Origin: Chitinophagaceae bacterium
GTDB lineage: Bacteria; Bacteroidota; Bacteroidia; Chitinophagales; Chitinophagaceae
DNA length: 64,000 bases
Reading direction: 5' to 3'
Assembly (NCBI GenBank): GCA_019638595.1
Contig: JAHBTJ010000026.1
Span: 1-64,000 of the forward strand
Shown: positions 4,007 through 47,175 of the stretch, in pieces
Position numbering within the stretch: the stretch's first letter is position 1
Layout of the letters: every line of letters begins with the position of its first letter
The notes under the pieces: generated by a model
What the model was told of the DNA's origin: nothing
Databases searched by the model: none
Seen by the model: the letters and a program-made list of their open reading frames with translations, nothing else
Translations under genes and position numbers: made by a program

Positions 4007-5719
4007 TCAGTGTGAATCTCTTGTTACTTCGCTGCCCGAAGCGCCACACAGGAAGTCAAAATCTGCACCAAGATGCGCCTGCTGCACGTGATTGACATAT
4101 AAGCTTACATAACCCCTTGTATAGGGCATCGCTGCTTTTTCTTTGCCCGATTTTCTTCTTTCCAGCTCATCCTCCGGTACATCTGCCTGCAAGGTTCGCT
4201 GCTTTACATCCAGCGTAATAATATCGCCATCCTCTATTACGGAAAAATTACCCCCGGCGGCCGCTTCGGGCGATACATGCAATACCACCGTACCAAAACC
4301 GGTACCGCTCATCCTGCCATCGGAAATACGAACCATATCTGTAACTCCTTTGGCCAGCAGCTTTTTGGGCAGTCCCATATTGCCTACTTCCGGCATACCC
4401 GGGTAGCCTATGGGGCCTACGTTCTTCAGTACCATTATACTGTTCTCATCTATATCCAAAAGAGGATCGTCAATCCTGTTCTTATAGTCTTCAATATTTT
4501 CGAACACCACCGCTTTGCCGGTATGTTTTAATAAATGCGCACTGGCGGCAGATGGTTTTAATACGGCGCCCTCTTCGCACAGGTTGCCCTTTAGCACTAC
4601 TATGCCCGATATACTGTTAAACGGCTTTTCCGACGAAGCAATTACGTTTCTGTCGTAACAGGCCGCATCCGTACAGTTTTCGGCAATTGTTCTGCCATTC
4701 ACCGTTAAAGCGTCTTTGTTCAGAGCGGGTAATATTTCTTTCATCACCGCAGGCAGCCCGCCGGCATAATACAGGTCCTCCACAAAATGTTCCCCCGAAG
4801 GCTGGAGATTGGCTATCAACGGGATATCTTTTGAATGCACATCAAAATCATTTAAGGAGAGCTCCACTCCCACCCTGCCGGCTATTGCCAGCAAATGCAA
4901 TACAAAATTGGTAGATCCTCCTATAGCAGCATTTACCTTTATAGCGTTTTCAAATGCCTCGCGGGTAAGAATATCCGTTAGCTTCAAATCTTCTTCCACC
5001 ATTTTTACAATGCGTTTACCGGAAAGTTGCGCCAGCACTTTTCTACGTGAATCGGCGGCGGGAATGGCCGCATTTTCCGGTAACGAAAGCCCGAGCGACT
5101 CTACCATACAGGCCATAGTCGCAGCAGTGCCCATTACGGCACAATGGCCGCGGCTGCGGGCCATGCAGGCTTCCGAAACTTCCATTTCCTGCTCCGTCAT
5201 TTGCCCCGAGCGTACCGCTTCGCTGAAACGCCAGATATCGCTGGTGCCTATATTTTTTCCCTTATACTTACCCGTAAGCATGGGGCCACCCGACACTACA
5301 ATGGTTGGTATGTTTACACTGCAGGCGCCCATTACCAGTGAAGGAGTTGTTTTATCGCAGCCGCAAAGCAGTACTACCCCGTCTATAGGATTGGCGCGTA
5401 TGGATTCTTCCACATCCATGCTCGCGAGGTTACGGTACAGCATAGCCGTAGGTTTGATCAGGGTTTCACCTAACGACATTACAGGGAACTCAACAGGATA
5501 ACCGCCGGCTTCCAGGATACCATATTTTACAGACTCCGCCAGCTCGCGGAAATGCGCATTGCAGGGTGTCAGCTCCGACCAGGTATTACATATTCCTATA
5601 ACGGGCTTACCACGGAACTCATAATCAGGAATACCCTGGTTCTTCATCCAGGCACGATAAATAAATCCATCCTTGCCGGTTTTCCCAAACCAGTTCTGGC
5701 TTCGCAATTGTTTCTTCAT
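4007..5719 (-). CDS. IlvD/Edd-family sugar-acid dehydratase (L-arabinonate dehydratase-like)
   Basis: A 570-residue [2Fe-2S] dehydratase. I take the ATG giving MKKQLRSQNW; a longer frame to 5809 adds 30 residues with no conservation. The N-terminal WFGKTGKDGFIYRAWMKNQG is typical of the sugar-acid branch rather than dihydroxy-acid dehydratase of valine synthesis. Cluster-ligand cysteines are visible at about C53 (TPCN), C121 (GCDK, with the neighbouring K123 that is carbamylated in characterised L-arabinonate dehydratase) and C193 (GHCAVMG). The reaction would be dehydration of an aldonate to a 2-keto-3-deoxy acid. It stands alone; no sugar dehydrogenase or aldolase is adjacent, so the substrate is uncertain. 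Its 3' end abuts the RHS repeat scar. Confidence 0.85.
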   Translation of the reverse strand: MKKQLRSQNWFGKTGKDGFIYRAWMKNQGIPDYEFRGKPVIGICNTWSELTPCNAHFRELAESVKYGILEAGGYPVEFPVMSLGETLIKPTAMLYRNLASMDVEESIRANPIDGVVLLCGCDKTTPSLVMGACSVNIPTIVVSGGPMLTGKYKGKNIGTSDIWRFSEAVRSGQMTEQEMEVSEACMARSRGHCAVMGTAATMACMVESLGLSLPENAAIPAADSRRKVLAQLSGKRIVKMVEEDLKLTDILTREAFENAIKVNAAIGGSTNFVLHLLAIAGRVGVELSLNDFDVHSKDIPLIANLQPSGEHFVEDLYYAGGLPAVMKEILPALNKDALTVNGRTIAENCTDAACYDRNVIASSEKPFNSISGIVVLKGNLCEEGAVLKPSAASAHLLKHTGKAVVFENIEDYKNRIDDPLLDIDENSIMVLKNVGPIGYPGMPEVGNMGLPKKLLAKGVTDMVRISDGRMSGTGFGTVVLHVSPEAAAGGNFSVIEDGDIITLDVKQRTLQADVPEDELERRKSGKEKAAMPYTRGYVSLYVNHVQQAHLGADFDFLCGASGSEVTRDSH

Positions 5720-5763
5720 GGTCAAATCAATCCTTTCGGATAAAGATAGGCAAAGTTTGGGGT

Positions 5764-5937
5764 TTAGAGGGGGCAGGAACCGCAGCCATCCAAAATTATA
5801 TTTCGCCAATGCGGGTATATGACTTTCGGCGCTTTTCCCGGTAATTCATAATCACTCAATTTATAAAATTCTTTGGCTTTTTGGTTCCAGTTGTATTGGT
5901 TCGTAAGATAGCAACCGCAGCGGGGTAGAATAACTTG
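5764..5937 (-). pseudogene. possible gene-tail fragment upstream of the dehydratase
   Basis: This minus-strand frame of 57 codons has no good start codon but reads like protein: YNWNQKAKEFYKLSDYELP, then PHWRNIILDGCGSCPL and a stop, with a CGC and a CGSC cysteine pair. It overlaps the rejected 5' extension of the dehydratase in another frame. It could be the C-terminal remnant of a gene cut by rearrangement. I do not recognise the family and the support is only amino-acid composition. Confidence 0.2.
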
Positions 5938-12296: not shown

Positions 12297-12893
12297 TTAT
12301 TTTGAATGCCTGCCTTTCAGGATATTTACCACATCGCTGAGCTTATATCCTTTGGCATTCAGCAGGATAAGATAATGAAACAACAGGTCGGCAGATTCGT
12401 TCAGGAACAATTCATCATTATTGTCTTTCGCCTCAATTACGGTCTCTACCGCTTCTTCGCCTACCTTTTGCGCTATTTTATTGATGCCTTTTTGAAAGAG
12501 TTTCGCTACGTACGATTCTTCAGGCGCTACTTTTTTTCTCAGCTCTATAATATCTTCGAGGTAATACAGGAAATCATCCCTGTGATTTTTTTCATCCCAG
12601 CAGGTATCCGCGCCGGTATGACAAACCGGCCCCAGCGGATGCGCTTTTATTAACAGTGTATCATGGTCACAGTCAACCGCGGCCGATCTCAGCTCAAGAA
12701 AATGACCGCTCTCCTCTCCTTTTGTCCAAAGCCGTTTTTTGCTGCGGCTATAAAAAGTTACCTTACCTGTTTGCATGGTTGTATTCCAGGCCTCTTCATT
12801 CATAAATCCCAGCATCAAAACCTTTTGGGTATCCACATCCTGAATAATAGCAGGTACCAGCCCGTCGCTGTACTTTTTAAAATCAATTTTCAT
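12297..12893 (-). CDS. hisIE: bifunctional phosphoribosyl-AMP cyclohydrolase / phosphoribosyl-ATP diphosphatase
   Basis: A 198-residue fusion carrying histidine steps 2 and 3. The HisI half (about residues 1-105) shows VLMLGFMNEEAW, VTFYSRSKKRLWTKGE, and the metal-binding DCDHDTLLIK and GPVCHTGADTCW. The HisE half (about 110-198) shows KKVAPEESYVAKLFQKG, KVGEEAVETVIEAK and ESADLLFHYLILL. The order HisI-HisE and length are normal for Bacteroidota. It is the last his gene in this minus-strand series, 23 bases after the TfoX-like gene. Its stop abuts a repeat remnant. Confidence 0.95.
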   Translation of the reverse strand: MKIDFKKYSDGLVPAIIQDVDTQKVLMLGFMNEEAWNTTMQTGKVTFYSRSKKRLWTKGEESGHFLELRSAAVDCDHDTLLIKAHPLGPVCHTGADTCWDEKNHRDDFLYYLEDIIELRKKVAPEESYVAKLFQKGINKIAQKVGEEAVETVIEAKDNNDELFLNESADLLFHYLILLNAKGYKLSDVVNILKGRHSK

Positions 12894-12916
12894 CGAATAT
12901 CAATAAAGGCTGCAAG

Positions 12917-13264
12917 TTAATGTTTCTTTTTCGATGACTTTGCCTTATCATTAAAACCAAGACAAAGCTTTATCCAGAATTCAAAATCTTTTTTTGTTTT
13001 AAACCCGTCTGGCGCTACACAGCAATAACCATTCATCACCCTGCCTTTCATTATCATGGGCTGGTATGCTTTTCGCTTTTGTAATGAAGCCTGTATAGCG
13101 GGATCGAAACGGCACATCAATTGCTCTCCTGTTACGTTTACACACATTTTTCCATTTACTAAAAAAGCCAACCCGCTAAACATTTTCTTTTCTTCAACCT
13201 GAAGTTCCGGCACAGCAGCGAGATAAGCCCTTATGCGTTCAGCAAGACCCGTATTATAAGCCAT
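12917..13264 (-). CDS. TfoX N-terminal domain protein
   Basis: A 115-residue protein consisting of only the TfoX/Sxy N-terminal domain: GLAERIRAYL, EEKKMFSGLAFLVNGKMCVNV, LMCRFDP, MKGRVMNGYC, and a lysine-rich end. In gammaproteobacteria TfoX controls competence, but stand-alone N-terminal domains in Bacteroidota have no established role. It lies between hisF and hisIE with gaps of 14 and 23 bases, so it is probably co-transcribed with histidine genes. A link to histidine synthesis is not evident. Confidence 0.85.
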   Translation of the reverse strand: MAYNTGLAERIRAYLAAVPELQVEEKKMFSGLAFLVNGKMCVNVTGEQLMCRFDPAIQASLQKRKAYQPMIMKGRVMNGYCCVAPDGFKTKKDFEFWIKLCLGFNDKAKSSKKKH

Positions 13265-13278
13265 ATGTAAATCATTTT

Positions 13279-14037
13279 CTATAAACGAACTTCAACTTCC
13301 TTAGAAAAAAGGTATTGTTTTAAACCTGTAATACTTATTTCCTTGAAATGAAATATACTGGCTGCCAGGGCGGCGTCTGCCTTCCCTTCTTCAAAAACCG
13401 TTACAAAATGTTCCATAGTTCCGCCGCCGCCGCTTGCTATTACAGGAACAGGCAATTGTTCCGAAAGTATGCGGGTAATATCAAGCGCAAAGCCTTGCTT
13501 AGTACCATCGTGGTTCATGGATGTAAGTAATATCTCCCCGGCACCCAGCTCCACGGCCTGTTTTGCCCATTCAAAGCATTTTGTACCGGTTTTTGTTCTT
13601 CCGCCATTCAGGTACACATACCATTCCCCGTCTTCTTCTTTTTTTGTATCAATGGCCAGAACCACGCACTGGCTCCCGAATTCTTTTGCCAGCTCATTTA
13701 CAAGCTGCGGGTTCTTATACGCCGCCGTGTTTACAGAAATCTTGTCGGCGCCATTCTGCAATAATACACTCACATCCTGCACACTGCCAATGCCCCCACC
13801 CACCGTAAAAGGAATATTGATATGGTGTGAGATGCGGTTGGCCAACTCACTCAGCGTTTTTCTTTTTTCAACGGTAGCGGTAATGTCAAGAAACACCAAT
13901 TCATCCGCTCCTTCTTTTGCATACAGGGCGCCCAGTTCCACCGGGTCGCCTGCATCACGCAGATTCACAAAATTTGTTCCCTTAACAGTTCTGCCATCTT
14001 TTATATCAAGACAAGGGATGATTCTTTTTGTAAGCAT
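13279..14037 (-). CDS. hisF: imidazole glycerol phosphate synthase, cyclase subunit
   Basis: A 252-residue TIM barrel with [20 protein letters not shown], catalytic D11 (CLDIKDG) and D130 (VLAIDTKK), phosphate-binding [11 protein letters not shown] and [13 protein letters not shown]. HisF cyclises the ammonia-bearing intermediate to imidazole glycerol phosphate and AICAR, using ammonia delivered by HisH, which is coded upstream on the same strand. A four-helix protein gene separates it from hisA. Length and catalytic residues are intact. Confidence 0.96.
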
Positions 14038-14105
14038 AAGAAGATTTCGAATTTGAGATTTGAAATTTGAGATTTGTGGTTTATGGTTTGAAGTTTATGG
14101 TTAAA

Positions 14106-14504
14106 TCACTGCCGGTTTCGAAATTTCTGGCCTTTTATCAGTGATTTATTTAGATAACTCATAAATGCTGCAATCCTGGTAGAAAGTTGCTCATATTGAC
14201 AAACGGTTTCTTCGAATTCCTTTTCAGTTATGTATTGCTGATCAAATGCTCTATATAATTGTGAACGAACTTCACCGCAAGAACCCTTTGCAACTCCTAA
14301 AAAATTAATAAACTCTAATCTTGAAGAGCGATCAAATCCTTCTGCAATATTATCCATAACCGACCCTGCTGATGATTTTATTTGCTCTTTGAATTTATAC
14401 TCCCTTAAGAAAACTTCTTTTTGAGTAAGCCGGAATATCTTTAAGGAAAGCGCTCTCGATTGTTTCCAAATTTCCAGCTCCTCAAACTTTAAAATAGTAG
14501 GCAT
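14106..14504 (-). CDS. four helix bundle protein (23S rRNA intervening-sequence type)
   Basis: A 132-residue, all-helical protein: FEELEIWKQSRALSLKIF, EYKFKEQIKSSAGSVMDNIAEGF, FINFLGVAKGSCGEVRSQLYRAF. These are the hallmarks of the S23 / four helix bundle family first seen in intervening sequences of 23S rRNA genes. The start MPTILKFEELEIW is preferred over one 7 codons upstream. It sits between hisA and hisF, and is bounded on both sides by 7-base-period repeats (14041-14103 and 14525-14560), suggesting insertion into a once-contiguous his operon. Function of free-standing copies is unknown. Confidence 0.85.
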   Translation of the reverse strand: MPTILKFEELEIWKQSRALSLKIFRLTQKEVFLREYKFKEQIKSSAGSVMDNIAEGFDRSSRLEFINFLGVAKGSCGEVRSQLYRAFDQQYITEKEFEETVCQYEQLSTRIAAFMSYLNKSLIKGQKFRNRQ

Positions 14505-14552
14505 GTTATTATAAATTAGCAACACCTAAAACTACAAACAATAAACCACAAA

Positions 14553-15266
14553 CTATAAACTTCTCAAATCCCTAACATCTACCCTTCCCTCATAAATCGC
14601 TTTTCCTACTATTGCTCCTTTACAACCGGCTTCGCTCAGTGTATGCAGATCATCCATATTGCTCACACCACCGCTGGCAATAAAATACAATGCGGGAAAT
14701 TTTTGAATGATATTTTTATACAGGTCTGTTGATGGCCCCTCGAGCTTCCCGTCTTTGCTTACATCTGTACAGAATAATTGAGTTACGCCATGGTCAATAT
14801 ATTTTTCTATAAAATCGTATATCCGGATATCGGTTGTTTCCAGCCAGCCTGCAACAGCAATTTTTTCATCCTTTACATCGGCGCCCAACAAAAATTTGTC
14901 AGCGCCAAAAACAGAGAACCATCTCACCAGTTCTTTTTCATCTTTTACAGCTATACTGCCCACTGTAACCAGTGCCGCCCCTGAATTAAAAACAATCTTT
15001 ACATCGTCTTCTTTTTTGATACCACCGCCAAAATCTATAACGAGCGCAGTTTTCCCCGCGATCGTTTCCAATACCTTCCAGTTTTTTACCTGCCCCGCTT
15101 TGGCGCCGTCAAGATCCACCAAATGCAGGCGCCTTAAGCCCGCATCCTCAAACGCTTTGGCTACTTCCAGCGGATGTTCATTGTAAATTTTCTTTTGCGC
15201 GTAATCACCCTGGGTCAGCCGAACGCATTTACCTTCTATAATATCTATTGCCGGAATTATTTCCAT
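14553..15266 (-). CDS. hisA: phosphoribosylformimino-AICAR ribotide isomerase
   Basis: A 237-residue TIM barrel: MEIIPAIDIIEGKCVRLTQGD with catalytic D8, LHLVDLDGAKAG, IDFGGGIKKEDDV, and D130 in LLGADVKDEK, and C-terminal FIASGGVSNMDDL plus GCKGAIVGKAIYEG. It performs the Amadori rearrangement in histidine synthesis. It is 15 bases downstream of hisH and is followed by the four-helix gene and hisF on the same strand. Full length and intact. Confidence 0.96.
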   Translation of the reverse strand: MEIIPAIDIIEGKCVRLTQGDYAQKKIYNEHPLEVAKAFEDAGLRRLHLVDLDGAKAGQVKNWKVLETIAGKTALVIDFGGGIKKEDDVKIVFNSGAALVTVGSIAVKDEKELVRWFSVFGADKFLLGADVKDEKIAVAGWLETTDIRIYDFIEKYIDHGVTQLFCTDVSKDGKLEGPSTDLYKNIIQKFPALYFIASGGVSNMDDLHTLSEAGCKGAIVGKAIYEGRVDVRDLRSL

Positions 15267-15281
15267 TGCCTATTTCCAGTT

Positions 15282-15881
15282 TTAAATTGCAATAAAGTTT
15301 TTCAGAATTTGTTCTCCTTTGCCGGCGCTTTTCTCAGGGTGAAACTGCACGCCGTAAAAATTGTTTTTATGCAAAGCCGAGCTGTACGGCAATATATAAT
15401 CAGTGGTTGCTATAGTATGCTCGCCGAGGGCAGCATAATAGCTGTGTACAAAATAAGCGTAGCTGCCATCCGGCACTTCATTAAAAAGCGGTGTTTTCAG
15501 ATCATAAATATTATTCCAGCCGATTTGCGGGATCTTTAGTTGTTTAGCAGCGCCTGCAGCTTTACCAAAATATTTTACATCTTCGTCAAATATATTCAGG
15601 CAATCCACATTATTTTCTTCCGAGAACCGGCACATCAACTGCATACCGAGGCAAATGCCCAGCACCGGTTGCTGCAGGTTTTTAATTATCATATCCAATC
15701 CTCTTTCCTTTAAATAGCGCATGGCGCTGCTCGCCTCGCCCACTCCCGGAAATATTACCTTATCAGCCCGTTGAATTTCATTCACATTGTCCGTTACCTT
15801 AGCTTCGGCGCCTATCCGTTCCAGGGCATATAAAACAGATTGAATATTTCCGGCATTATATTTTATAATTACAAGATTCAT
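15282..15881 (-). CDS. hisH: imidazole glycerol phosphate synthase, glutaminase subunit
   Basis: A 199-residue class I glutamine amidotransferase: YNAGNIQSV at the N terminus, KVIFPGVGEASSAM, nucleophile C77 in VLGICLGMQLM, and VQFHPEKSAGKG with the catalytic His and Glu. It releases ammonia for HisF. It is the first his gene of the minus-strand series; 93 bases separate it from the trpA stop, and a tRNA-Gly on the opposite strand fills that gap. hisG, hisD, hisC and hisB are not in the window. Confidence 0.96.
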   Translation of the reverse strand: MNLVIIKYNAGNIQSVLYALERIGAEAKVTDNVNEIQRADKVIFPGVGEASSAMRYLKERGLDMIIKNLQQPVLGICLGMQLMCRFSEENNVDCLNIFDEDVKYFGKAAGAAKQLKIPQIGWNNIYDLKTPLFNEVPDGSYAYFVHSYYAALGEHTIATTDYILPYSSALHKNNFYGVQFHPEKSAGKGEQILKNFIAI

Positions 15882-15974: not shown

Positions 15975-16745
15975 TTATTTTAATATTCCTTCCAGGAATT
16001 TTTTTGTTGTCGTTTTTACATCCGGGTTCTCCTGCAATGCTTTTATGTATGCGCTGCCAATGATAGCGCCATTCGCATGTACGCACGCAGATTCAAAGCT
16101 GGATCTGTCTTTTATGCCAAAACCTACCAGCACCGGGTTATTAAGCCGCATATCCTTCAACCTTTCCAGGTATACTTCCACGTTAGAAAAGTTTTTGTCT
16201 TTGCCTGTGGTAGAAGAAGATGAAACCGCATATATAAATCCCGTACTCAGCTCATCAATCTTCCTGATCCTATCTGCCGAAGTTTCCGGTGTAACCAGGA
16301 AAATAAAATCCAGTCCGTACTTTTTTACTGTTGGGCCATATTCTGTTTCAAATTCCCTTACCGGGATATCAGGAAGTATCAACCCGTCAACGCCGGCAGC
16401 AGCAACATCCTTACAGAATTTTTCAAAGCCATATTGCAAAACAGGATTGATATACCCCATCAATATTACCGGCACATGAACCGTTTTCCGCATTTGCTGC
16501 AACTGGCCGATCAGCGCTTTAATGGTCATACCGTTTAGCAAAGCCACACCACCGCTTTCCTGTATCACCGGGCCATCCGCTAACGGATCACTATAGGGTA
16601 TTCCCAGTTCAATCAGGTCAGCGCCATTCGCCTGCAATGCTTCCATCACTTCTATTGTACTGTTCAATGTGGGATAACCCGCCGTACAATAGATGTTCAA
16701 AACATTGTTTTGCTTTTGCTTAAATAGTTGTTGTATTCTGGTCAT
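15975..16745 (-). CDS. trpA: tryptophan synthase alpha subunit
   Basis: A 256-residue TIM barrel with LNIYCTAGYPTLNST, catalytic E46 (LIELGIPYSDP) and D57 (LADGP), VDGLILPDIP, and a glycine-rich VGFGIKDR phosphate site. It cleaves indole-3-glycerol phosphate and passes indole to TrpB. It is the last trp gene of the operon and ends 5 bases from the tRNA-Gly gene on the other strand. The gap to trpB (about 310 bases) is filled by hairpin repeats. Confidence 0.96.
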   Translation of the reverse strand: MTRIQQLFKQKQNNVLNIYCTAGYPTLNSTIEVMEALQANGADLIELGIPYSDPLADGPVIQESGGVALLNGMTIKALIGQLQQMRKTVHVPVILMGYINPVLQYGFEKFCKDVAAAGVDGLILPDIPVREFETEYGPTVKKYGLDFIFLVTPETSADRIRKIDELSTGFIYAVSSSSTTGKDKNFSNVEVYLERLKDMRLNNPVLVGFGIKDRSSFESACVHANGAIIGSAYIKALQENPDVKTTTKKFLEGILK

Positions 16746-17084
16746 TGTTAAAAATTAAAAAGAAGCAAGCAGCAGCCTATCTCTCCTTCTCTCTTTCCAA
16801 AGGAAAGAGAACGGTGCTACAGCACAAATCCAAACTATATATTCTACCACATCAGCTATAGAATATATCCAAACAAAACAGCCTCACCCTCCTTCTCCCT
16901 CTCCTTGCAGAGAGGGACGGTACTATAGTACAATTCCAGGCTAAATCACTTCCACATCATCTCCAAAACACATCCCAACATTGCTTTCACGCTTCATTTG
17001 ATTACCCTACATCACTATCAGCATTTAATAATCATTCTTCAAAAAAGCCTGGGCTGTGCTTAGGTCTCCTCTCCTTTGGAGAGG
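16746..17084. repeat. CTCTCC-type hairpin repeats between trpB and trpA
   Basis: Three related palindromes occupy the 314-base gap and the end of trpB: CTCTTTCC-AAA-GGAAAGAG at 16791-16809, CCCTCTC-CTTGCA-GAGAGGG near 16891-16910, and CCTCTCC-TTT-GGAGAGG at 17068-17084. The first two are followed by ACGGT(G/A)CTA(C/T)AG-like sequence. No gene is visible here. The last palindrome is inside the trpB reading frame and codes its final residues. Confidence 0.6.
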
Positions 17085-18304
17085 CCGGGAGAGGTTGTTT
17101 TCATATACGTCGCCATATCTTTATCGCCTCTTCCGCTTAGGCACAGCACTACGGTATCCTTTGGCGTTAGCTTCAGTTGATTGAGTCCCGCTATCGCATG
17201 CGCGCTTTCAAGCGCGGGAATAATACCTTCCAGTCGCGTCAATTCAAAAGCCGCATCCAATGCTTCTTTATCGGTAGCGCTTAAAAATATGCCGCGACCG
17301 GTTTCAAATAAATGCGCGTGTAATGGCCCAATGCCGGGGTAATCCAGTCCCGCGGATATACTATGCGGCTCCACTACCTGCCCATCTTCTGTTTGCATCA
17401 CCAGGCTCTTGCTCCCATGCAGCACCCCCGGTTTACCCAGTTGCGTTGTAGCGGCGCTCATACCGGTTTTCACACCACAACCTGCCGCTTCTACCGCCAC
17501 AAGCTTCACAGAAAATTCTTCGAGAAAATGGTAGAATGTACCAGCCGCATTACTACCACCACCCACACAGGCAATAACATAACCAGGCAATTCACTGCCT
17601 GTTTTTTCATTCAACTGCCAGCGTATTTCTTCACTGATAATACTTTGAAATCTTGCCACCATATCAGGATATGGATGCGGGCCAACCACGCTGCCTATTA
17701 TATAATGAGTATCAACCGGATTATTGATCCAGTCGCGTATCGCTTCGTTGGTAGCATCCTTTAATGTTTTACTTCCACTCGTTGCAGGCACAACAGTAGC
17801 GCCGAGCATCTTCATCCTGGCAACATTCGGCGCCTGCCGTTCAATGTCTTTTTCACCCATATATACCACGCATTGCATATTCATCAACGCGCAAACCGTA
17901 GCTGTAGCCACACCGTGTTGCCCGGCGCCTGTTTCTGCTATTATACGATGCTTGCCTAAACGTTTTGCCAGCAAAATCTGACCGATGGTATTGTTGATCT
18001 TATGCGCCCCTGTATGATTCAGATCTTCGCGCTTTAGAAATATGGTAGTATTATGTTTTTCACTTAACCGCTTTGCATGATACAACGGTGACGGACGACC
18101 GACATAATCTCTCAGCAGATCCCTGAATTCTTTTTGAAAACCTTCATCATACATGATCTTCAAATACCGTTCTTTCAGTTCCTCCACATTCGGATGCAGC
18201 ATTTCGGGTATATATGCGCCTCCGAAGTTTCCATAATAACCGAAAATATCCGGCTGCCGGAATGTGCCTTTGTATTGCCCCAATGTTATTGTCCTGTTGA
18301 TCAT
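17060..18304 (-). CDS. trpB: tryptophan synthase beta subunit
   Basis: A 414-residue PLP enzyme: [31 protein letters not shown] with PLP lysine K102, [28 protein letters not shown] for phosphate binding, and [14 protein letters not shown] near the C terminus. It joins indole and serine to tryptophan. The protein ends in [12 protein letters not shown], coded by an intergenic-type hairpin, so the natural C terminus after MATYMK seems to have been replaced by repeat-derived residues. A RAYT gene and an acetyltransferase separate it from trpF. Confidence 0.96.
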
Positions 18305-18327: not shown

Positions 18328-18688
18328 GTCCGAAGTCTCCGACTTCGGACTTTTTATGTTCTTCATAGTCTCCGACTATGAGTATATTTTATGTTCCCGG
18401 CTTCAGTAATCCTGCCCATCGCCTGTTGCGTCGCACACTTGTACTGCAAGAACACTAACAGGCAGGATTAAAACTTTTATGCTGTACGAAGTCTCCGGCT
18501 ACAAGTGTTCAAACGTTATTTTGAAGGCTGCCATATCAACAATTTTATAGCGTCATAGACGCGAAAGTTTGGTGGCAATTATAAAGTAACGTATTGACAA
18601 AGCTCCGTAGGAGCGGTATTTTCACAGGTTTCGAACGTTTATGGTCTCCGACTTCGGACACACTATGTTCTTCATTGTCTCCGACAAT
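18328..18688. repeat. REP-like hairpins sharing GTC-TCC-GAC, downstream of the RAYT gene
   Basis: In the 383-base gap between trpB and the RAYT gene I see perfect hairpins with a constant centre and variable arms: GTCCGAAGTC-TCC-GACTTCGGAC (18328-18350), CATAGTC-TCC-GACTATG (18364-18380) and ATTGTC-TCC-GACAAT (18674-18688), plus imperfect relatives near 18490 and 18652. Arm changes are matched on both sides, so pairing is conserved. The last one touches the RAYT stop codon. No gene is visible in the gap. Confidence 0.8.
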
Positions 18689-19254
18689 CAATCCAAAACT
18701 TCAATATCAATTATTCCCTTCTTCCCCACATAATTCGCAGCACTTGAATAAATATAATGTTCCGGAAGCTCTACAATGCCCGCCCGTACAGGATTCTGAT
18801 GAATGTAATTGATCTTAATATCAGTAAACTCCTTACTGAAACATTCTTCAGGATGATTATTATTCGTCCATATCTGGTAATCTTCATTTTTGCTATTGCG
18901 ATCACCATAATATTTAAACTGGTGCAACATCCACAATCTTCTGCTTTCCATTTCACTCTGAATAACCGGCATCATAGTATGATGCGTGTGCTTTTTAAAA
19001 TCCCTCACAATATCGCTTAACGTATATTCTTTCATCGCTGCCCGCGCTATTAAATGAACATGGTTGGTCATTATAACAAAAGCATTTAAAACCAAACCTT
19101 TGTGTTCCTGGCAATATTTAAAAGAATCTATCAAAATATCCTTATATACTTTCCTTGTCAGCAAATCAATAAAGCCACAAACAGTAAAAGTTAAAAAATG
19201 CGCGGCATACTGATCCCTGATCGTATAGCCACTTCTGAACATGGTGTTTTTCAT
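18688..19254 (-). CDS. REP-associated tyrosine transposase (RAYT, Y1_Tnp family)
   Basis: A 188-residue protein if started at MKNTMFRSGY; a longer frame to 19344 runs through a hairpin and is unlikely. The HUH motif is in VIMTNHVHLIAR, and the C-terminal IKINYIHQNPVRAGIV...YIYSSAANY is typical of Bacteroidota Y1 transposase-like proteins. RAYTs are single-copy, domesticated relatives of IS200/IS605 enzymes that act on REP hairpins. Here GTC-TCC-GAC hairpins flank both ends of the gene, as expected for a RAYT with its cognate REPs. It interrupts the trp operon between the acetyltransferase gene and trpB, in the same direction. Confidence 0.88.
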   Translation of the reverse strand: MKNTMFRSGYTIRDQYAAHFLTFTVCGFIDLLTRKVYKDILIDSFKYCQEHKGLVLNAFVIMTNHVHLIARAAMKEYTLSDIVRDFKKHTHHTMMPVIQSEMESRRLWMLHQFKYYGDRNSKNEDYQIWTNNNHPEECFSKEFTDIKINYIHQNPVRAGIVELPEHYIYSSAANYVGKKGIIDIEVLD

Positions 19255-19287
19255 ATAGTGCAAAGTTTTAAACTTTGGAGAACATAG

Positions 19288-19316
19288 GCTGTACGAAGTC
19301 GGAGACTTCGTACAGC
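19288..19316. repeat. long REP-like hairpin upstream of the RAYT gene
   Basis: GCTGTACGAAGTC-GGA-GACTTCGTACAGC is a perfect 13-bp stem with a GGA loop. The centre GTC-GGA-GAC is the reverse complement of the GTC-TCC-GAC centre found downstream of the gene, so the flanking hairpins are in opposite orientation. A partial extra copy of one arm (GACTTCGTACAGCAG) follows at 19318, and a second small palindrome CAAAGTT-TTA-AACTTTG lies at 19261-19277. Confidence 0.85.
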
Positions 19317-19344
19317 AGACTTCGTACAGCAGAGCAGCCAGCAA

Positions 19345-19836
19345 CTACAATATCAACTGCATAAATTTCAGATCAAGCCACTTATCAAACTTCCATCCTA
19401 CCTGCTTAAAATGCGCTACTTCCTCAAAACCAAAATGCCGGTGCAGCTTTATACTTGCCTCATTATCCGCATCTATTCCCGCCACAATCGTATGCATTCC
19501 TAATTCTTTCGACGCATCAATCAAAGGCTGCATTAAAAGCTTACCAATTCCCTTACCCTGCTGATCCTCTTTTACATATATGGCATTTTCCACGGTAAAC
19601 TTATACGCAGCCCATGCCCTGAAAGGCCCTATTGAACTGAATCCTGCTACCTCATTATTATCTTCAGCAACAAACACCGGAAAATTTTGCCGCTTTTTTG
19701 CTTCAAACCATTGCATACGCATTTCAAAGCTATGCGGCACATAATCGTATACAGCGGTAGTATGCAAAATGGCATCGTTATATATATCCAGCATTGCCTG
19801 TATATCTTTACCTGTTGCAAGTCTTACCTGTATCAT
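19345..19836 (-). CDS. GNAT-family N-acetyltransferase (phosphinothricin/methionine-sulfoximine acetyltransferase-like)
   Basis: A 163-residue GNAT protein: VRLATGKDIQAMLDIYNDAI at the N terminus, AEDNNEVAGFSSIGPFRAW, and the acetyl-CoA motif VKEDQQGKGIGKLLM, then IVAGIDADNEASIKLHRHFGF. The pattern is that of the Pat/Bar type that acetylates phosphinothricin or methionine sulfoximine; the true substrate here is unknown. Its start codon is 1 base after the trpF stop, so it is probably translated as part of the trp operon. Confidence 0.85.
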   Translation of the reverse strand: MIQVRLATGKDIQAMLDIYNDAILHTTAVYDYVPHSFEMRMQWFEAKKRQNFPVFVAEDNNEVAGFSSIGPFRAWAAYKFTVENAIYVKEDQQGKGIGKLLMQPLIDASKELGMHTIVAGIDADNEASIKLHRHFGFEEVAHFKQVGWKFDKWLDLKFMQLIL

Positions 19837-19837
19837 A

Positions 19838-20470
19838 TTATTTCAATGCTTCGGCAAAAGATTTTACTTTCTCCATATCCTTTACTCCCGGGATCGTTTC
19901 AAACCTGCTGTTCACATCCACCGCAAAAAAATTAGCTGTATGTTTACCCGCGGCAAAACGCTTTATCGGTTCAACGTCTTCCAGTCCAATGCCTCCGCTT
20001 AGTAAAAAAGGTTTATTGATATTGGCCTGTTCAAGAATATTCCAGTCAAACTTTTTACCGCTTCCCCCAAAGTTCGCCCAATCCGTATCGAACAGGTACA
20101 GGTCACTCACATTGCCATATTCCCTTACCTTCCAATCAATGTTATCGCCTTCTTTTATTCTTACAACTTTAATAACAGGCACCTGTTCGCTCAACCGCTC
20201 ACAAAGTCTCGGCGACTCATCCCCGTGCAACTGCACCATGTATAGCCCATATTCATCTACATAACGCATTACCTCATCGTAGCCGGCATTCACAAACACA
20301 CCCACTTTACTTATCTTCAGCTTCGACTTAGCCAGGTCTTCCGGCTTTATTTTCCCTACCACATATCTTGGAGACTGGTGGTAAAAAATAAAACCTGCAA
20401 ATTCTATTCCCGCTTCTTCCAGCGCATGCACCTGCTCCACCCGGGTCATTCCGCATACTTTAATACGCAT
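19838..20470 (-). CDS. trpF: phosphoribosylanthranilate isomerase
   Basis: A 210-residue TIM barrel: MRIKVCGMTRVEQVHAL with the catalytic Cys in KVCGMT, GFIFYHQSPRYV, VGVFVNAGYDEV, YMVQLHGDE, a LFDTDWANFGGSGKKFDW loop carrying the catalytic Asp, and FLLSGGIGLEDV. It isomerises phosphoribosylanthranilate to the carboxyphenylamino-deoxyribulose phosphate. It starts 4 bases after trpC and is followed by the acetyltransferase with a 1-base gap. Confidence 0.95.
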   Translation of the reverse strand: MRIKVCGMTRVEQVHALEEAGIEFAGFIFYHQSPRYVVGKIKPEDLAKSKLKISKVGVFVNAGYDEVMRYVDEYGLYMVQLHGDESPRLCERLSEQVPVIKVVRIKEGDNIDWKVREYGNVSDLYLFDTDWANFGGSGKKFDWNILEQANINKPFLLSGGIGLEDVEPIKRFAAGKHTANFFAVDVNSRFETIPGVKDMEKVKSFAEALK

Positions 20471-20474
20471 ACCG

Positions 20475-21257
20475 CTATTTTTTTAATTGCTCAACAAATG
20501 CGGCAAATGCAATCGAAGGGTCCGGCGCCTTCATAAAGTTCTCTCCTATTAAAAAACCCTTAAAGCCATATTTCTTTAATTCATTGATGGTAGCCACATC
20601 GCTTATACCACTTTCAGATATCCTGAATTTATCCGCAGGTATTTTTCCGCTCAGGTCAATAGACGTCCGGATGCTCACTTCAAAAGTTTTCAAATTGCGG
20701 TTATTCACCCCCACTATATCCACTTCATCACAAATATACTCCAGTTCTGTTTCGTTATGTATTTCAAGCAGTACTTCCAGTGCAAGATCTTTTGCAAACT
20801 TTGCGAGTTGCTTAACCTGCAGAACAGTTAAATTAGCTGCGATCAGCAATATTACATCGGCTCCGATTGATTTCGCTTCCATCAACTGGTATTCGTCAAT
20901 CATAAAATCTTTACGGAGCACCGGCACCTGGTTTACCCTTGCTTTTTCAAGGTCGGCAAAGCTTCCGCCGAAAAATTGTTCATCAGTCAGTACGGAAAGC
21001 CCCGAAGCTCCATTGTCTGCATACGCCTTTGTAACCAAAGCGGCATCTGCATCCGCGTTTATCCACCCTTTGGAAGGAGATCTCCGCTTAAATTCCGCAA
21101 TAATGCCGGTACGGGTTTCATCCGCCAAAAATTTCTTCAGCGAAAGGGTATCCCTGCCAAAGTATGCAGACTGCTCCAGCTTTGCTACCGGAACTTTTGA
21201 TTTTCTTTCCGCTACTTCAATTTTCTTTTGTGCTATTATCGTATCTAAAATGTTCAT
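20475..21257 (-). CDS. trpC: indole-3-glycerol phosphate synthase
   Basis: A 260-residue TIM barrel with NILDTIIAQKKIEV, GIIAEFKRRSPSKGWI, SVLTDEQFFGG, PVLRKDFMIDEYQ, LLEIHNETEL, VGVNNRNLKTFEV and a final SESGISDV / GFLIGENFM. It closes the indole ring with loss of CO2. Separate from trpF, as usual in Bacteroidota. The gap to trpD (113 bases) contains 7-base-period CAAATTT-type repeats. Confidence 0.96.
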   Translation of the reverse strand: MNILDTIIAQKKIEVAERKSKVPVAKLEQSAYFGRDTLSLKKFLADETRTGIIAEFKRRSPSKGWINADADAALVTKAYADNGASGLSVLTDEQFFGGSFADLEKARVNQVPVLRKDFMIDEYQLMEAKSIGADVILLIAANLTVLQVKQLAKFAKDLALEVLLEIHNETELEYICDEVDIVGVNNRNLKTFEVSIRTSIDLSGKIPADKFRISESGISDVATINELKKYGFKGFLIGENFMKAPDPSIAFAAFVEQLKK

Positions 21258-21370: not shown

Positions 21371-22381
21371 TCATCTAATTTTAAATTGTTCTTGCATTCC
21401 CTGTAGCTTCTTCAGCGCCCCCAATGCTTTTTTGCTTTCAAGACTTTCTACTGCTGCAAGATAAGCATCCTCATAATTTTTATACGCACCGGTACAATGG
21501 AGCGCCATTGCCGCGTTGGATAATACCACGGCATTCTGCGCCCAGGTACCTTCTCCTTTTAATATGCTTAAAAAAAGCCTGGCTGCCTCTTCCACTGTGT
21601 TTCCTCCATATATGTCGCTTGCCGATACCATCCGTTTCCCTACCTGCTCCGGTGTCATGATCCGTTCTCCTTCCTTTGTAATTACCTTGGTATCATTGGT
21701 GAGCGAAATTTCGTCGTATCCATCCAGCCCGTGAATGATCGTGAACGCCTTTCCTGTTTGCTGTAACAGGTAATTGTATATGCGCGCCATTTCAAGACTG
21801 TATACTCCCACCAGTTGGTAGGCAGGCCGGGCGGGGTTTACCATAGGACCTAACATATTAAAAAATGTACGGATCCCAAGATTCCTGCGGATAGAGGCTA
21901 CCGCTTTCAACGCCGGATGAAATAAGGGAGCGTGCAGGAAACAAATATTGGCTTCTTCCACTTCTTTTTTCAATTGTGCAGCATCTGACTTGAATTGATA
22001 GCCTAACTGTTCCATTACATTGGACGCACCGCTCACGGAAGTTGCTCCATAGTTACCATGCTTTGCCACTTTTTGGCCGGCGCCTGCAACAATAAAACAT
22101 GCCAGCGTAGATATATTGAAGGTGTTCTTGCCGTCACCGCCGGTACCTACTATGTCCACCACGTTAAAATCCTCCAGCGGCACCTGCACACACAGCTCGA
22201 GCAGCGCATCGGCAAATCCCTGTAATTCCTCAATGGTAATAGTGCGCATAAGGTATACCGTAATAAAAGCGGTTACCTCGCTTTCATTGTATATTCCTTT
22301 GGAAATGTTCACCAGCACTTCTTTTGCCTGCTGGCGGGAAAGCGTTTTATATTCGAAAAGGTATTGAAGTATTTTTTTCAT
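21371..22381 (-). CDS. trpD: anthranilate phosphoribosyltransferase
   Basis: A 336-residue enzyme: LQYLFEYKTLSRQQAKEVL at the N terminus, DIVGTGGDGKNTFNISTL for PRPP binding, KHGNYGATSVSGASNVMEQLG, FLHAPLFHPALK, RTFFNMLGPMVNPA and VIHGLDGYDEISL. It attaches phosphoribose to anthranilate. The 213 bases to trpG hold no gene or clear site. Start MKKILQYLFEY is the obvious family start. Confidence 0.96.
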   Translation of the reverse strand: MKKILQYLFEYKTLSRQQAKEVLVNISKGIYNESEVTAFITVYLMRTITIEELQGFADALLELCVQVPLEDFNVVDIVGTGGDGKNTFNISTLACFIVAGAGQKVAKHGNYGATSVSGASNVMEQLGYQFKSDAAQLKKEVEEANICFLHAPLFHPALKAVASIRRNLGIRTFFNMLGPMVNPARPAYQLVGVYSLEMARIYNYLLQQTGKAFTIIHGLDGYDEISLTNDTKVITKEGERIMTPEQVGKRMVSASDIYGGNTVEEAARLFLSILKGEGTWAQNAVVLSNAAMALHCTGAYKNYEDAYLAAVESLESKKALGALKKLQGMQEQFKIR

Positions 22382-22594: not shown

Positions 22595-23179
22595 TCATCC
22601 CAGTCCCAGCCAGTTCCTCATGATCACTTCTCCATCCGGCGTAAGCACACTTTCGGGATGAAACTGCACTCCCTGCACATCATATTTTTTATGCTGTAAG
22701 CCCATAATATAATTATTATCATCTCTCGCGGTCACTTCCAGTTCCTCAGGAAAGCTTTCATCAGACACTACCCATGAGTGATAGCGCCCTACATCAATAG
22801 TATCATTCAATCCTGCAAAAAGCCCGCTTCTTTTACCTCCATTACCGGCAGCAATATGTACCGGTAGCGCTACCCCATGGTACACCGTACTCAGGTTGAC
22901 CAGTTTTCCGCCAAAAGCCTCTCCGATAGCCTGGTGACCAAGACAAACACCCAGTATAGATTTTGTTGGAGCATATGTTTTTATCAGCGGCAGCAGCAAC
23001 CCGGCTTCTTCAGGAATGCCCGGGCCGGGCGAGAGGATGATCTTATCGTACTCGTTTATTTTCTCAAGACTGATCTGGTCGTTCCTGTATACATCCACTT
23101 TATCGTGCAGTATCTTTTCTACCAGGTGAACCAGGTTATAAGTAAATGAATCATAATTATCAAAAACCAATATCTTCAT
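22595..23179 (-). CDS. trpG: anthranilate synthase, glutamine amidotransferase component
   Basis: A 194-residue class I amidotransferase: MKILVFDNYDSFTYNLVHLVEKI, IILSPGPGIPEEAG, SILGVCLGHQAIGEAFGG with the nucleophilic Cys, RYHSWVV, and VQFHPESVLTP. It feeds ammonia to TrpE. It is 69 bases downstream of trpE. The same type can serve PabA; context makes TrpG the primary role, although dual use is possible. Confidence 0.94.
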   Translation of the reverse strand: MKILVFDNYDSFTYNLVHLVEKILHDKVDVYRNDQISLEKINEYDKIILSPGPGIPEEAGLLLPLIKTYAPTKSILGVCLGHQAIGEAFGGKLVNLSTVYHGVALPVHIAAGNGGKRSGLFAGLNDTIDVGRYHSWVVSDESFPEELEVTARDDNNYIMGLQHKKYDVQGVQFHPESVLTPDGEVIMRNWLGLG

Positions 23180-23248: not shown

Positions 23249-24661
23249 TCAAATTTGTTCCGCCACTTCCACAGCTTTTTTTAACGCGTTTAGTTTGTTA
23301 TTCACTTCCTGCAGTTCACTTTCCGGGTTCGATGCCGCCACTATTCCCGCTCCTGCCTGGGAAACAAGCGTATTGTTTTTACTTAAAAAAGTCCGTATCA
23401 TAATAGCATGGTTGCAACTGCCGTCAAAGCCCATAAAGCCAATAGCACCTCCATAATAGCTTCTTTTCGTAGGTTCATACTGGTCAATCAACTGCATAGC
23501 TTTAAACTTGGGCGCCCCGCTGAGCGTACCCGCCGGAAAAGTAGTAGCCAGTAACAGGAAGGGATTAATGCCAGGCCTTACATTTCCATTCACCTCGCTC
23601 ACCAAATGAATAACATGCGAGTAATACTGTACCTGCCGGTAATGCTTTACCTTCACGTCATCGCATAAGCGGCTCAAATCGTTGCGTGCCAGGTCTACCA
23701 GCATTACATGCTCGGCATTTTCCTTGGCGTCCTGCAGCAACTTTTCCGCAGCCTGCTGATCCACCTCATCATCGCCCGTTCGTTTAAATGTGCCGGCGAT
23801 GGGATGCACTACGGCTTTTCCATTCTTGATTATTAATTGACTTTCGGGAGAAGATCCCAGCAGCTTATAATCCCCATAATCGAAATAAAAAAGATACGGT
23901 GAAGGATTGATGTTACGCAATGCCCTGTATACATTGAATTCATCGCCGGTAAACGATTGCTCAAAACGCCTGCTCAGCACAATCTGGAAAACATCTCCCC
24001 GGTAACAGCTTTGTATTCCTTTTTTTACCATCTGCCTGTAATCTTCATCTGTCATATTAGACGATTCAGCACTGTTGACCTTAAAGGGAAACACAGGAAC
24101 ATCCTTACTTCTTATAAGCGATTCCACAACCGCCAGGTCGCCCGGTATCCCATCAATCCGGTTCTCACAAATGAACATTTCATTCTTAAAATGATTGATG
24201 GCTATAACGTACTGGTATAAACGATAGCGCATCAGGGGAACTGCCGCCGACTGCTTTTGATCGTTGAATGTAACGGAGTCGAAGAACTGAACAGCATCAA
24301 ATGTAGTGTAGCCAAACAAGCCCTGTATGCCGCTTATCACCTTATCTTTTGTTGGCTCTACCTCAAACCTTTGCATAAAGCTCCATAAAATGCCAGGCAC
24401 TTCAGACGGATTTGTAACAGGCAACCGCTCCGCCTTTTGTCCCGGCAACTTAAATTCTACCGTAGCGGGATCGGTAATTTCCATACCGGCTATGGCATTG
24501 ATGCCTATGAACGAAAAGCTGTTTTCCGCAGCATGATAATCGGTACTTTCCAGCAATACCGTATCCCTGAAACGATCCCGCACGCGCAGGTAAATACCTA
24601 CCGGCGTATACAGGTCGGAAAGCATCTTTTTACAATGGGTTCTTATTTGAACTTTCTTCAT
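23249..24661 (-). CDS. trpE: anthranilate synthase component I
   Basis: A 470-residue chorismate-binding enzyme. The C-terminal catalytic half shows YRGDVFQIVLSRRFEQ, LGSSPESQLI, HPIAGTFKRT, ENAEHVMLVDLARNDLSR, FPAGTLSGAPKFKAMQLID, YYGGAIGFM and QAGAGIVAASNPESE. It makes anthranilate from chorismate with ammonia from TrpG. It is the first enzyme gene of the operon, preceded by a short leader peptide gene with three Trp codons and a terminator hairpin, so transcription is probably attenuated when tryptophan is plentiful. Confidence 0.96.
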   Translation of the reverse strand: MKKVQIRTHCKKMLSDLYTPVGIYLRVRDRFRDTVLLESTDYHAAENSFSFIGINAIAGMEITDPATVEFKLPGQKAERLPVTNPSEVPGILWSFMQRFEVEPTKDKVISGIQGLFGYTTFDAVQFFDSVTFNDQKQSAAVPLMRYRLYQYVIAINHFKNEMFICENRIDGIPGDLAVVESLIRSKDVPVFPFKVNSAESSNMTDEDYRQMVKKGIQSCYRGDVFQIVLSRRFEQSFTGDEFNVYRALRNINPSPYLFYFDYGDYKLLGSSPESQLIIKNGKAVVHPIAGTFKRTGDDEVDQQAAEKLLQDAKENAEHVMLVDLARNDLSRLCDDVKVKHYRQVQYYSHVIHLVSEVNGNVRPGINPFLLLATTFPAGTLSGAPKFKAMQLIDQYEPTKRSYYGGAIGFMGFDGSCNHAIMIRTFLSKNNTLVSQAGAGIVAASNPESELQEVNNKLNALKKAVEVAEQI

Positions 24662-24679
24662 ATGAACACTGCCTTATTA

Positions 24680-24710
24680 CTTAAATGAAAAACCCCGGTA
24701 ATAACCGGGG
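24680..24710 (-). terminator. trp attenuator terminator
   Basis: On the minus strand CCCCGGT-TATT-ACCGGGG forms a perfect 7-bp GC-rich stem (24693-24710) followed by TTTTTC, an intrinsic terminator about 20 bases before the trpE start. The base preceding the hairpin extends its 5' arm to GCCCC, which is complementary to GGGGC inside the leader gene (codons 17-18), so an alternative antiterminator pairing is possible. Confidence 0.85.
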
Positions 24711-24746
24711 CGTGAATATGATCAACTTACCAATACTGCAATAGCA

Positions 24747-24806
24747 TTACAAGCCCCTGTAAGAGTTTGTATGCCACCACCAATATTGATTTGCACTATT
24801 TTTCAT
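24747..24806 (-). CDS. trpL: trp operon leader peptide
   Basis: Nineteen codons on the minus strand: MKNSANQYWWWHTNSYRGL, then TAA. Three consecutive TGG codons (codons 9-11) in so short a frame, immediately before trpE, are the hallmark of ribosome-mediated attenuation. The Trp codons lie about 18 bases before a GGGGC segment (codons 17-18) that can pair with the 5' arm of the terminator at 24693-24710. A ribosome stalled at Trp codons would leave that segment free; one that reaches the stop would cover it. There is no clear Shine-Dalgarno; an A/T-rich leader precedes the ATG. It is too short for ordinary gene callers. Confidence 0.88.
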   Translation of the reverse strand: MKNSANQYWWWHTNSYRGL

Positions 24807-24864
24807 AATTGAGCCACAAATATCATTGCTTTTTTGATAAAAAAAAATTTTTGACTTACTTTTT

Positions 24865-46431: not shown

Positions 46432-47175
46432 TTGTCTTCCGCAATCAACATACAAAACCTGGGCTTTGGCTACAAAGGCCAAACCAAACAGGTAATTCCG
46501 TGTCTTGACTTACAGGTAGCGGAGGGTGAGCGTTTTGGCATATTTGGTCCCAACGGCGCCGGTAAAACCACGCTCATGAACATCATGACCGGTTTACTTC
46601 CTTATGAATCGGGTTCAGTACAATTGTTGGGGCATGAAATAAAAAATCACAAAAAAAAGATCAATACCCTGTTTGGTTTTGTTCCGCAGGATTTTTCTTT
46701 TTACCACGAATTGAGTCCAGTAGAGAATATGGAATTTTTTGGAGCATGGGCCGGCTTAAACAAAATGCAAATCGTACGCAAAACAGATGAGCTGCTGAAT
46801 ATAATGTCGTTACAGGATGTAAGAAAGAAAGCGGTACATACTTTTTCCGGGGGTATGAAACGGCGTGTTAACCTTGCCATTGCAGTAATGCACGAGCCTA
46901 AAATCCTTTTCCTGGATGAACCCACTGTAGGGGTAGATGTACAAACAAGATATGCTATCATCGGCTACCTTAAACAGCTTAATAAAGAAGGTATGACGCT
47001 TGTATATACGTCTCACCAGTTGAAAGAAGCAGAAGATCTTTGCAACAAAGTAGCCCTGATAGACCAGGGAGCGATCATCGCGAACAATACGCTGCCGGTA
47101 CTATTGCAGGAACATGCACAGGACGGACTGGAAGGGTTATTCCTGAACCTTACCGGAAGAGCGTATAGGGATTAA
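46432..47175 (+). CDS. ABC transporter ATP-binding protein (permease missing)
   Basis: A 247-residue ATPase with Walker A FGPNGAGKTTLM, Q-loop FVPQDFSFY, signature FSGGMKRRVNLA, Walker B KILFLDEPTVGV and H-loop YTSHQLKEAE, typical of drug/lipid exporters. The best start is TTG at 46432 (SSAINIQNLGF); no ATG precedes conserved sequence. Flexirubin-type loci normally have a permease gene directly after the ATPase; here 7-base repeats and a convergent gene follow, so the partner is lost or elsewhere. Confidence 0.88.
   Translation: MSSAINIQNLGFGYKGQTKQVIPCLDLQVAEGERFGIFGPNGAGKTTLMNIMTGLLPYESGSVQLLGHEIKNHKKKINTLFGFVPQDFSFYHELSPVENMEFFGAWAGLNKMQIVRKTDELLNIMSLQDVRKKAVHTFSGGMKRRVNLAIAVMHEPKILFLDEPTVGVDVQTRYAIIGYLKQLNKEGMTLVYTSHQLKEAEDLCNKVALIDQGAIIANNTLPVLLQEHAQDGLEGLFLNLTGRAYRD

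Follow-up and report, generated by a model that had tools for sequence, protein, structure and literature searches.

Tryptophan leaders of the Bacteroidetes have been described before. Weinberg et al. (2010) list Bacteroid-trp, RF01692 (PMC2864571), which carries the title 'Bacteroidete tryptophan peptide leader RNA' in Rfam. According to a 2019 paper on F. psychrophilum, Bacteroid-trp resembles the E. coli trp leader (PMC6414381), and a report on the F. psychrophilum transcriptome mentions strong clues of leader-peptide attenuation upstream of amino-acid operons (PMC9723704). The novelty that the sequence-only reading of the present locus had implied is thus not borne out, as these sources already describe trp or amino-acid leaders in the Bacteroidetes. 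The kind of attenuator is known, and its Chitinophagaceae branch is missed by the RF01692 model. What our comparison adds is the near-universal presence of the leader and the position of the antiterminator strand in the leader's last codons. To these come a predicted 5' UTR of ~3-6 nt and predicted similar leaders for His (at hisG) and for Lys/Thr (at asd). No published Chitinophagaceae trp attenuator was found among the titles and abstract openings that were searched.

The locus lies in a 64-kb stretch of DNA, the whole of which is called the window below. Its trp genes are arranged in the order trpE-G-D-C-F, GNAT, RAYT, trpB, trpA:

23249..24661, minus strand: trpE, anthranilate synthase component I (TIGR00564, E 1.2e-120, 403.6 bits, below the curated cut-off of 517.7)
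22595..23179, minus strand: trpG (TIGR00566, E 4.8e-51, above cut-off)
21371..22381, minus strand: trpD (TIGR01245, E 8.1e-92, above cut-off)
20475..21257, minus strand: trpC (NF001377, E 7.5e-85, above cut-off)
19838..20470, minus strand: trpF (NF002298, E 5.4e-49, under cut-off)
19345..19836, minus strand: GNAT acetyltransferase in the trpF-trpB interval (ArsN1-like NF040504, E 5.1e-38, under cut-off)
18688..19344, minus strand: REP-associated tyrosine transposase, RAYT (NF047646, E 3.7e-24, above cut-off)
17060..18304, minus strand: trpB (TIGR00263, E 1.4e-176, above cut-off)
15975..16745, minus strand: trpA (TIGR00262, E 2.7e-65, above cut-off)

The region upstream of trpE holds the following elements:

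24817..24824, minus strand: predicted -7 promoter element GATATTTG (Bacteroidota consensus TAnnTTTG, one mismatch)
24747..24806, minus strand: leader peptide ORF (trpL) MKNSANQYWWWHTNSYRGL, 19 codons plus TAA
24774..24782, minus strand: three tandem Trp codons, codons 9-11, the proposed sensor
24748..24771, minus strand: 1:2 hairpin within the leader ORF, HTNS codons with RGL codons (RNAalifold)
24753..24757, minus strand: antiterminator strand GGGGC, nt 50-54, codons 17-18, complementary to GCCCC at 24711-24707
24692..24711, minus strand: intrinsic terminator hairpin GCCCCGGT-TATT-ACCGGGGT, 7 Watson-Crick pairs plus a G.U, with TTTT at 24691-24688

We consider this region very probably to be a ribosome-mediated transcription attenuator of the trp operon that reads the charging of Trp-tRNA, because the Trp codons, both hairpins and the complementarity between leader and terminator are conserved. 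The same conservation supports the core of the sequence-only reading, by which a translating ribosome would attenuate trpE-A in response to Trp-tRNA charging. Its individual elements were recovered as well: the 19-codon WWW frame is present at 24806-24747 on the minus strand with Trp at codons 9-11, and the terminator, with its 7 Watson-Crick pairs, G.U and TTTT, begins 35 nt past the stop codon (the earlier estimate was ~36). As in trpL-type leaders, a short ORF with tandem Trp codons stands upstream of the biosynthetic operon for its own amino acid. Among ATG-started ORFs of 8-40 aa on both strands of the window, trpL alone encodes WWW, and mononucleotide shuffling of the 245-nt intergenic region produced such an ORF in 3 of 20,000 trials. 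A broader scan of the window, for ATG ORFs of 8-40 aa in which one residue forms a run or cluster and which have a terminator behind them, likewise returned the trp leader locus alone. For the 145-nt leader RNA the folding energy is -46.3 kcal/mol (z = -4.61), a stability equalled by none of 200 shuffles.

Ribosome-mediated attenuation requires a ribosome that follows close behind the polymerase. In the model that we infer for the start site, ribosome stalling, kinetics and tryptophan response, RNA polymerase would start a few nucleotides upstream of the leader AUG and a ribosome would load immediately. When charged tRNA-Trp is scarce, this ribosome would stall at codons 9-11 and cover the HTNS codons, the leader hairpin would open, and the freed GGGGC of codons 17-18 would pair with the terminator GCCCC before the second arm exists, allowing transcription of trpE-A. 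When tryptophan is plentiful, the ribosome would reach the UAA and cover GGGGC, and when there is no translation, the leader hairpin would hide GGGGC; in either case the terminator would form. Under the assumption that the ribosome footprint extends 12 nt beyond the start of the A-site codon, the GGGG strand is free with the ribosome stalled on the Trp codons and covered with the ribosome at the stop. In three-state folding, the probability that the 5' arm of the terminator is held by the leader while the 3' arm has yet to be made was 0.79 in the stalled and 0.03 in the untranslated state of the window, with family means of 0.66 and 0.32 (n=99). It exceeded 0.5 in 85 of the 99 family leaders when stalled and in 28 of the 99 even when untranslated, and was ~0 by construction with the ribosome at the stop. 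Whatever the state of the ribosome, the full-length RNA favours the terminator at equilibrium, with a probability of 0.98 in the window and family means of 0.84 (stalled), 0.95 (at the stop) and 0.95 (untranslated); the switch must therefore be kinetic.

We next describe the leader among relatives of the genome, where it proved nearly universal. The closest relatives were drawn from a family of 147 genomes, f1, which is treated as the Chitinophagaceae since the relatives with names belong to that family. A trpE match at E <= 1e-80 was present in 109 of them, and two (G128 and G059), in which the match was without the N-terminus, were dropped before counting, which left 107 upstream regions. 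A leader ORF with WW lies within 450 nt upstream of trpE in 101 of these 107 genomes (reverse strand, 1/107) and within 500 nt in 103; the stricter WWW pattern occurs within 450 nt in 89 (reverse strand, 0/107). Among named loci, which overlap with the 107-genome set and are not independent of it, 72 of 80 carry a WW leader within 400 nt, and one of the eight without it has only 1 nt of upstream sequence. Of the relatives with a name, Terrimonas sp. NS-102 is closest, with 84% TrpE identity. Outside the family we included all 39 order- and class-level genomes of the sample with trpE at E <= 1e-60 and 25 of 125 more distant genomes, the latter hand-picked across many families with some families represented two or three times. 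WW leaders were found in 37 of the 39, the remaining two having WLW, and in 13 of the 25, against 0 of 64 in the reverse-strand control. The sequence-only reading had named a lack of conserved Trp codons and hairpins in close relatives as one outcome that would speak against it; the comparison was run, and the Trp codons and both hairpins are conserved. It likewise shows the leader ORF, the terminator, the sequestering hairpin and the complementarity between the leader end and the terminator.

The terminator was located by script between the leader and the first gene, as expected of a trpL-type arrangement, for 149 of 155 leaders, and in the other six hairpins are visible by eye. Pairing was then assessed on an alignment, A2, of 32 rows hand-chosen from 41 non-redundant WWW leaders, nine with spoiling length or tail being left out; because the rows were chosen for regular WWW leaders, its covariation counts favour the commonest layout, and its invariant Trp codons reflect the selection of rows carrying WWW. 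On A2, 94.8% of cells were paired in the terminator and 92.8% in the leader hairpin. Two-sided cells numbered 32 in the terminator, against 8.1 in shuffles (reached in 0/500) and at most 12 in slid versions of the stem. The leader hairpin had 6 such cells against 1.9 in shuffles, and neither this count nor its paired fraction was reached in any shuffle, although 62 of 500 shuffles equalled its number of pairs changed on both sides; slid by -3 columns it gave 12 two-sided cells rather than 6, but with just 25.2% of cells paired. The aligned rows thus point to covariation that is strong for the terminator and moderate for the leader hairpin. The hairpin hides the GGGG strand, in the manner of the sequestering upstream hairpin of trpL-type leaders. 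In the minimum free energy structure of the window it grows to 24790 and 24729, with the Trp codons pairing with a post-stop element. In 78 of 99 leaders this pairing of the Trp-codon strand ranked above 95% of shuffles, compared with 4 of 77 for a control stretch.

Complementarity between leader and terminator had been put at about 11 of 14 bases in the sequence-only reading. The facing of GGGGC and GCCCC stands, and the extent is revised to 11 of 15 pairing positions (nt 45-59), with an uninterrupted core of 5 bp. On A2, 81.1% of cells in this GGGGC/GCCCC register were paired. Its column covariation within the family is weak, as 47 of 500 shuffles reached the count of two-sided cells and 95 of 500 the score, and slides by -1 and -2 columns gave 7 and 8 two-sided cells against 6, with fewer cells paired. 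A one-base offset of the GGGG run in SGVL-type leaders is part of the reason. An alignment-free comparison of own with permuted leader-terminator pairs was made on 144 leaders, that is, the 155 less six without a script-found terminator, four with a stem of <6 bp and one empty row (L245). Mean duplex energy was -15.70 kcal/mol for leader ends with their own terminators and -12.65 kcal/mol when the pairs were permuted (z = -12.5, n=144), with z of -7.1 for the family (n=99) and -9.0 for the others (n=45); in none of the 5000 permutations run for each were the pairs as low as the own ones. Clades swap both sides together, as in GTCGTGA/TCACGAC (many genomes of a second family, f5), ATGTGGC/GCCACAT (an order-level relative) and CGCTGTGTA/TACACAGCG. 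The antiterminator is therefore kept by compensatory change across clades (z = -12.5), with weak columns within the family. Counted from the first base of the final Trp codon, the strand begins 13 nt or more downstream in 91 of 99 family leaders, and the same holds for 41 of the 45 leaders from other genomes. An expected covariation between the third base of the His codon and the third base of the stop codon was absent (p = 0.63).

These data also bear on whether the leader is instead a conserved small protein that acts in trans, like peTrpL of Sinorhizobium meliloti, with attenuation secondary. A trans role has been reported for the S. meliloti trp leader peptide (PMC7298713), and WWWHTNSxRGL is strikingly similar across much of the family. 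However, the tail of the peptide varies (SGVL, TLKGL, LNAV, QSIF and others), and the codons that are conserved are those that make up the strands of the RNA hairpin. Moreover, of 103 leaders, 54 have a GGGG run after the Trp codons that begins at codon position 2, 17 have it at position 1 and 7 at position 3, and 25 lack it; its occurrence in all three codon phases indicates selection on the RNA and not on the peptide alone. We therefore regard a primary role of the peptide in trans as very unlikely and prefer attenuation by the translating ribosome.

The spacing of promoter and leader was examined in 99 family leaders, four of the 103 being left out because their upstream sequence was too short. 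A [CTG]AnnTT[TC]G box lies 4-30 nt before the ATG in 88 of the 99 (5.5% in the mononucleotide-shuffled control). The gap between box and ATG is 7 nt in 49 of these 88 leaders, and TTTG occurs 17-21 nt upstream of the box in 79 of them; in the window, an exact -33 TTTG was not seen by eye at the expected place. Consensus sigma-70 promoter matches were set aside as uninformative in Bacteroidota. Since the G of the -7 box sits at -5 in F. johnsoniae (PMC6847099), the 5' UTR would be ~3 nt at the 7-nt gap and ~6 nt in the window, and transcription of the leader would probably start a few nucleotides before the AUG, yielding a near-leaderless mRNA. Of 52 more distant leaders, 21 have a gap of 4-10 nt, 17 have one of 12-32 nt, and the remaining 14 lack such a box. 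For comparison, leaderless mRNAs are given as 5.5% in F. psychrophilum (PMC9723704) and 5' UTRs of <10 nt as ~3.7% in B. thetaiotaomicron (PMC7366714), and 87% of the predicted leaders of F. johnsoniae are given as >10 nt (PMC6847099).

A further very unlikely alternative is that the hairpin is a plain or constitutive terminator, with the WWW ORF untranslated or irrelevant and trp controlled by a repressor or a trpE-proximal promoter. Against it, the Trp codons, the promoter spacing and the complementarity to the terminator are conserved together, and in the window the T-run is separated from trpE by only 26 nt, which leaves scant room for another promoter. A protein- or tRNA-binding attenuator in place of ribosome stalling, although TRAP and T-box are the usual trp attenuators of Firmicutes, is hardly credible here, as what is conserved is an ORF carrying tandem Trp codons and a search of the whole window at Rfam gathering score returned two tRNAs only and no T-box.

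The attenuator of the window was compared with the known trp leader families. It shares with Bacteroid-trp (RF01692) the phylum, the trp operon and a WW(W) leader plus terminator upstream of the trp genes, and yet the RF01692 model failed to detect anything in the window even at E <= 10, let alone at its gathering cut-off of 49 bits. With strict filters, the phylum sample of 198 genomes included 15 in which RF01692 scored above cut-off, every one of them from f5; among the genomes listed these were 15 of 18 from f5, as opposed to 0 of 8 from f1. In f5, the family in which the model works, pairing of the leader end with the terminator is seen too, as in f1, but the site differs, being the terminator loop and 3' side in most f5 leaders and the 5' arm in most f1 leaders. 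The resemblance to the enterobacterial Trp_leader (RF00513) extends to Trp codons, sequestering hairpin, antiterminator and terminator, and that model aligns end to end with the window at 24.9 bits (E 0.005), below its gathering cut-off of 41. Unlike in the enterobacterial trp leader, for which we draw on general knowledge of E. coli, the antiterminator strand here sits within the final sense codons, and a 5' UTR of ~6 nt is predicted. The amino-acid leaders of F. psychrophilum (PMC9723704) are likewise cases of Bacteroidetes leader-peptide attenuation upstream of amino-acid operons; they belong to a different family, and the main text of that paper contains neither trp nor tryptophan. Our own model of the leader, R1, hit all 12 genus genomes searched with scores of 97 bits or more and recovered, at E <= 0.01, 24 of 39 non-family loci (39 of the 64 loci were given).

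Several other features were observed in and around the operon. Palindromes of the form GTCCGAAGTCTCCGACTTCGGAC, probably REP elements, occur near the RAYT gene within the trp operon (18328-19344). A relative (G028) has a GNAT ORF after a trpF-sized ORF (5325-5813 of locus L282), and another (G123, locus L283) has no ORF of at least 110 aa between its trpF-sized and trpB-sized ORFs. Downstream of trpA, on the same strand, lie hisH, hisA, hisF and hisIE (12297-15881, minus strand; names inferred from Pfam matches), with a tRNA-Gly (ccc) between trpA and hisH on the opposite strand, an ORF of the 23S rRNA intervening-sequence-protein family between hisA and hisF (14106-14525, minus strand) and a TfoX_N ORF between hisF and hisIE (12917-13264, minus strand). 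Two other genomes of the genus likewise have an ORF the size of hisH after one the size of trpA, the ORFs being matched by size. The attenuator may thus also affect these his genes, as the sequence-only reading suggested. A His leader for hisH-A-F-IE was sought in the window and none was found; hisG lies elsewhere in the genome, away from hisH-A-F-IE, and has its own His leader.

This hisG leader, MITNTHHHHHYLPNR, is followed by a terminator (contig C2, upstream of hisG at 180491). A second sister leader came to light through a weak R1 match (G028:C24:82778), which is an asd leader and led us to asd; another weak match (G000:C7:200805) was discarded as a plain hairpin after a gene end. In the genome of the window itself, the Lys/Thr-rich leader ORF MIKMIKHTKSTKKQFLTGKG and a terminator precede the aspartate-semialdehyde dehydrogenase gene (contig C20, upstream of asd at 46861). 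All 12 genus genomes have a KHTK.TKKQF-like leader at asd and a leader with at least four consecutive His at hisG, each with a terminator and a leader end that may pair with it. The gap lengths at asd and hisG are not firm because the ATG chosen by script is sometimes internal. Beyond the genus, 28 upstream regions from 59 family genomes with asd were sampled: the asd pattern was present on the sense strand in 16 of the 28 (one of them, L334, false by eye) and on the reverse strand in 1 of 28, and seven further family loci looked alike by eye. In the class sample the pattern occurred in 1 of 29 genomes, a doubtful case (29 of 57 examined, one from f1). Rfam gave nothing above cut-off at four asd and hisG leader loci; Thr_leader scored 33.5 bits on the hisG leader of this genome, with a cut-off of 55. 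Titles and abstract openings yielded no published Bacteroidota asd peptide leader, and an older title in the reference list of PMC2864571 concerns attenuator-like sequences before asd of Streptococcus mutans. The asd element is thus possibly an undescribed lysine/threonine leader.

It is quite possible, if somewhat short of probable, that the trp, his and asd attenuators of the Chitinophagaceae share one design. In such a design the mRNA would be nearly leaderless (the predicted trp 5' UTR being ~3 nt at the commonest spacing), and the first ribosome would therefore load on the RNA as it emerges. The leader's last codons and stop would form the antiterminator strand, which would make the conserved peptide tail a by-product of RNA pairing, and the asd leader (KHTKRTKKQF-like) would be a lysine/threonine-sensing peptide for the aspartate pathway.

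The Rfam model for Bacteroidetes trp leaders misses the Chitinophagaceae, in which sister leaders are indicated at hisG and asd. Bacteroidota are described as being without Shine-Dalgarno sequences (PMC6847099, PMC3155529), and the presence of the trp leader in nearly all of the relatives examined, in a phylum of this kind, would make transcription-translation coupling directly testable.
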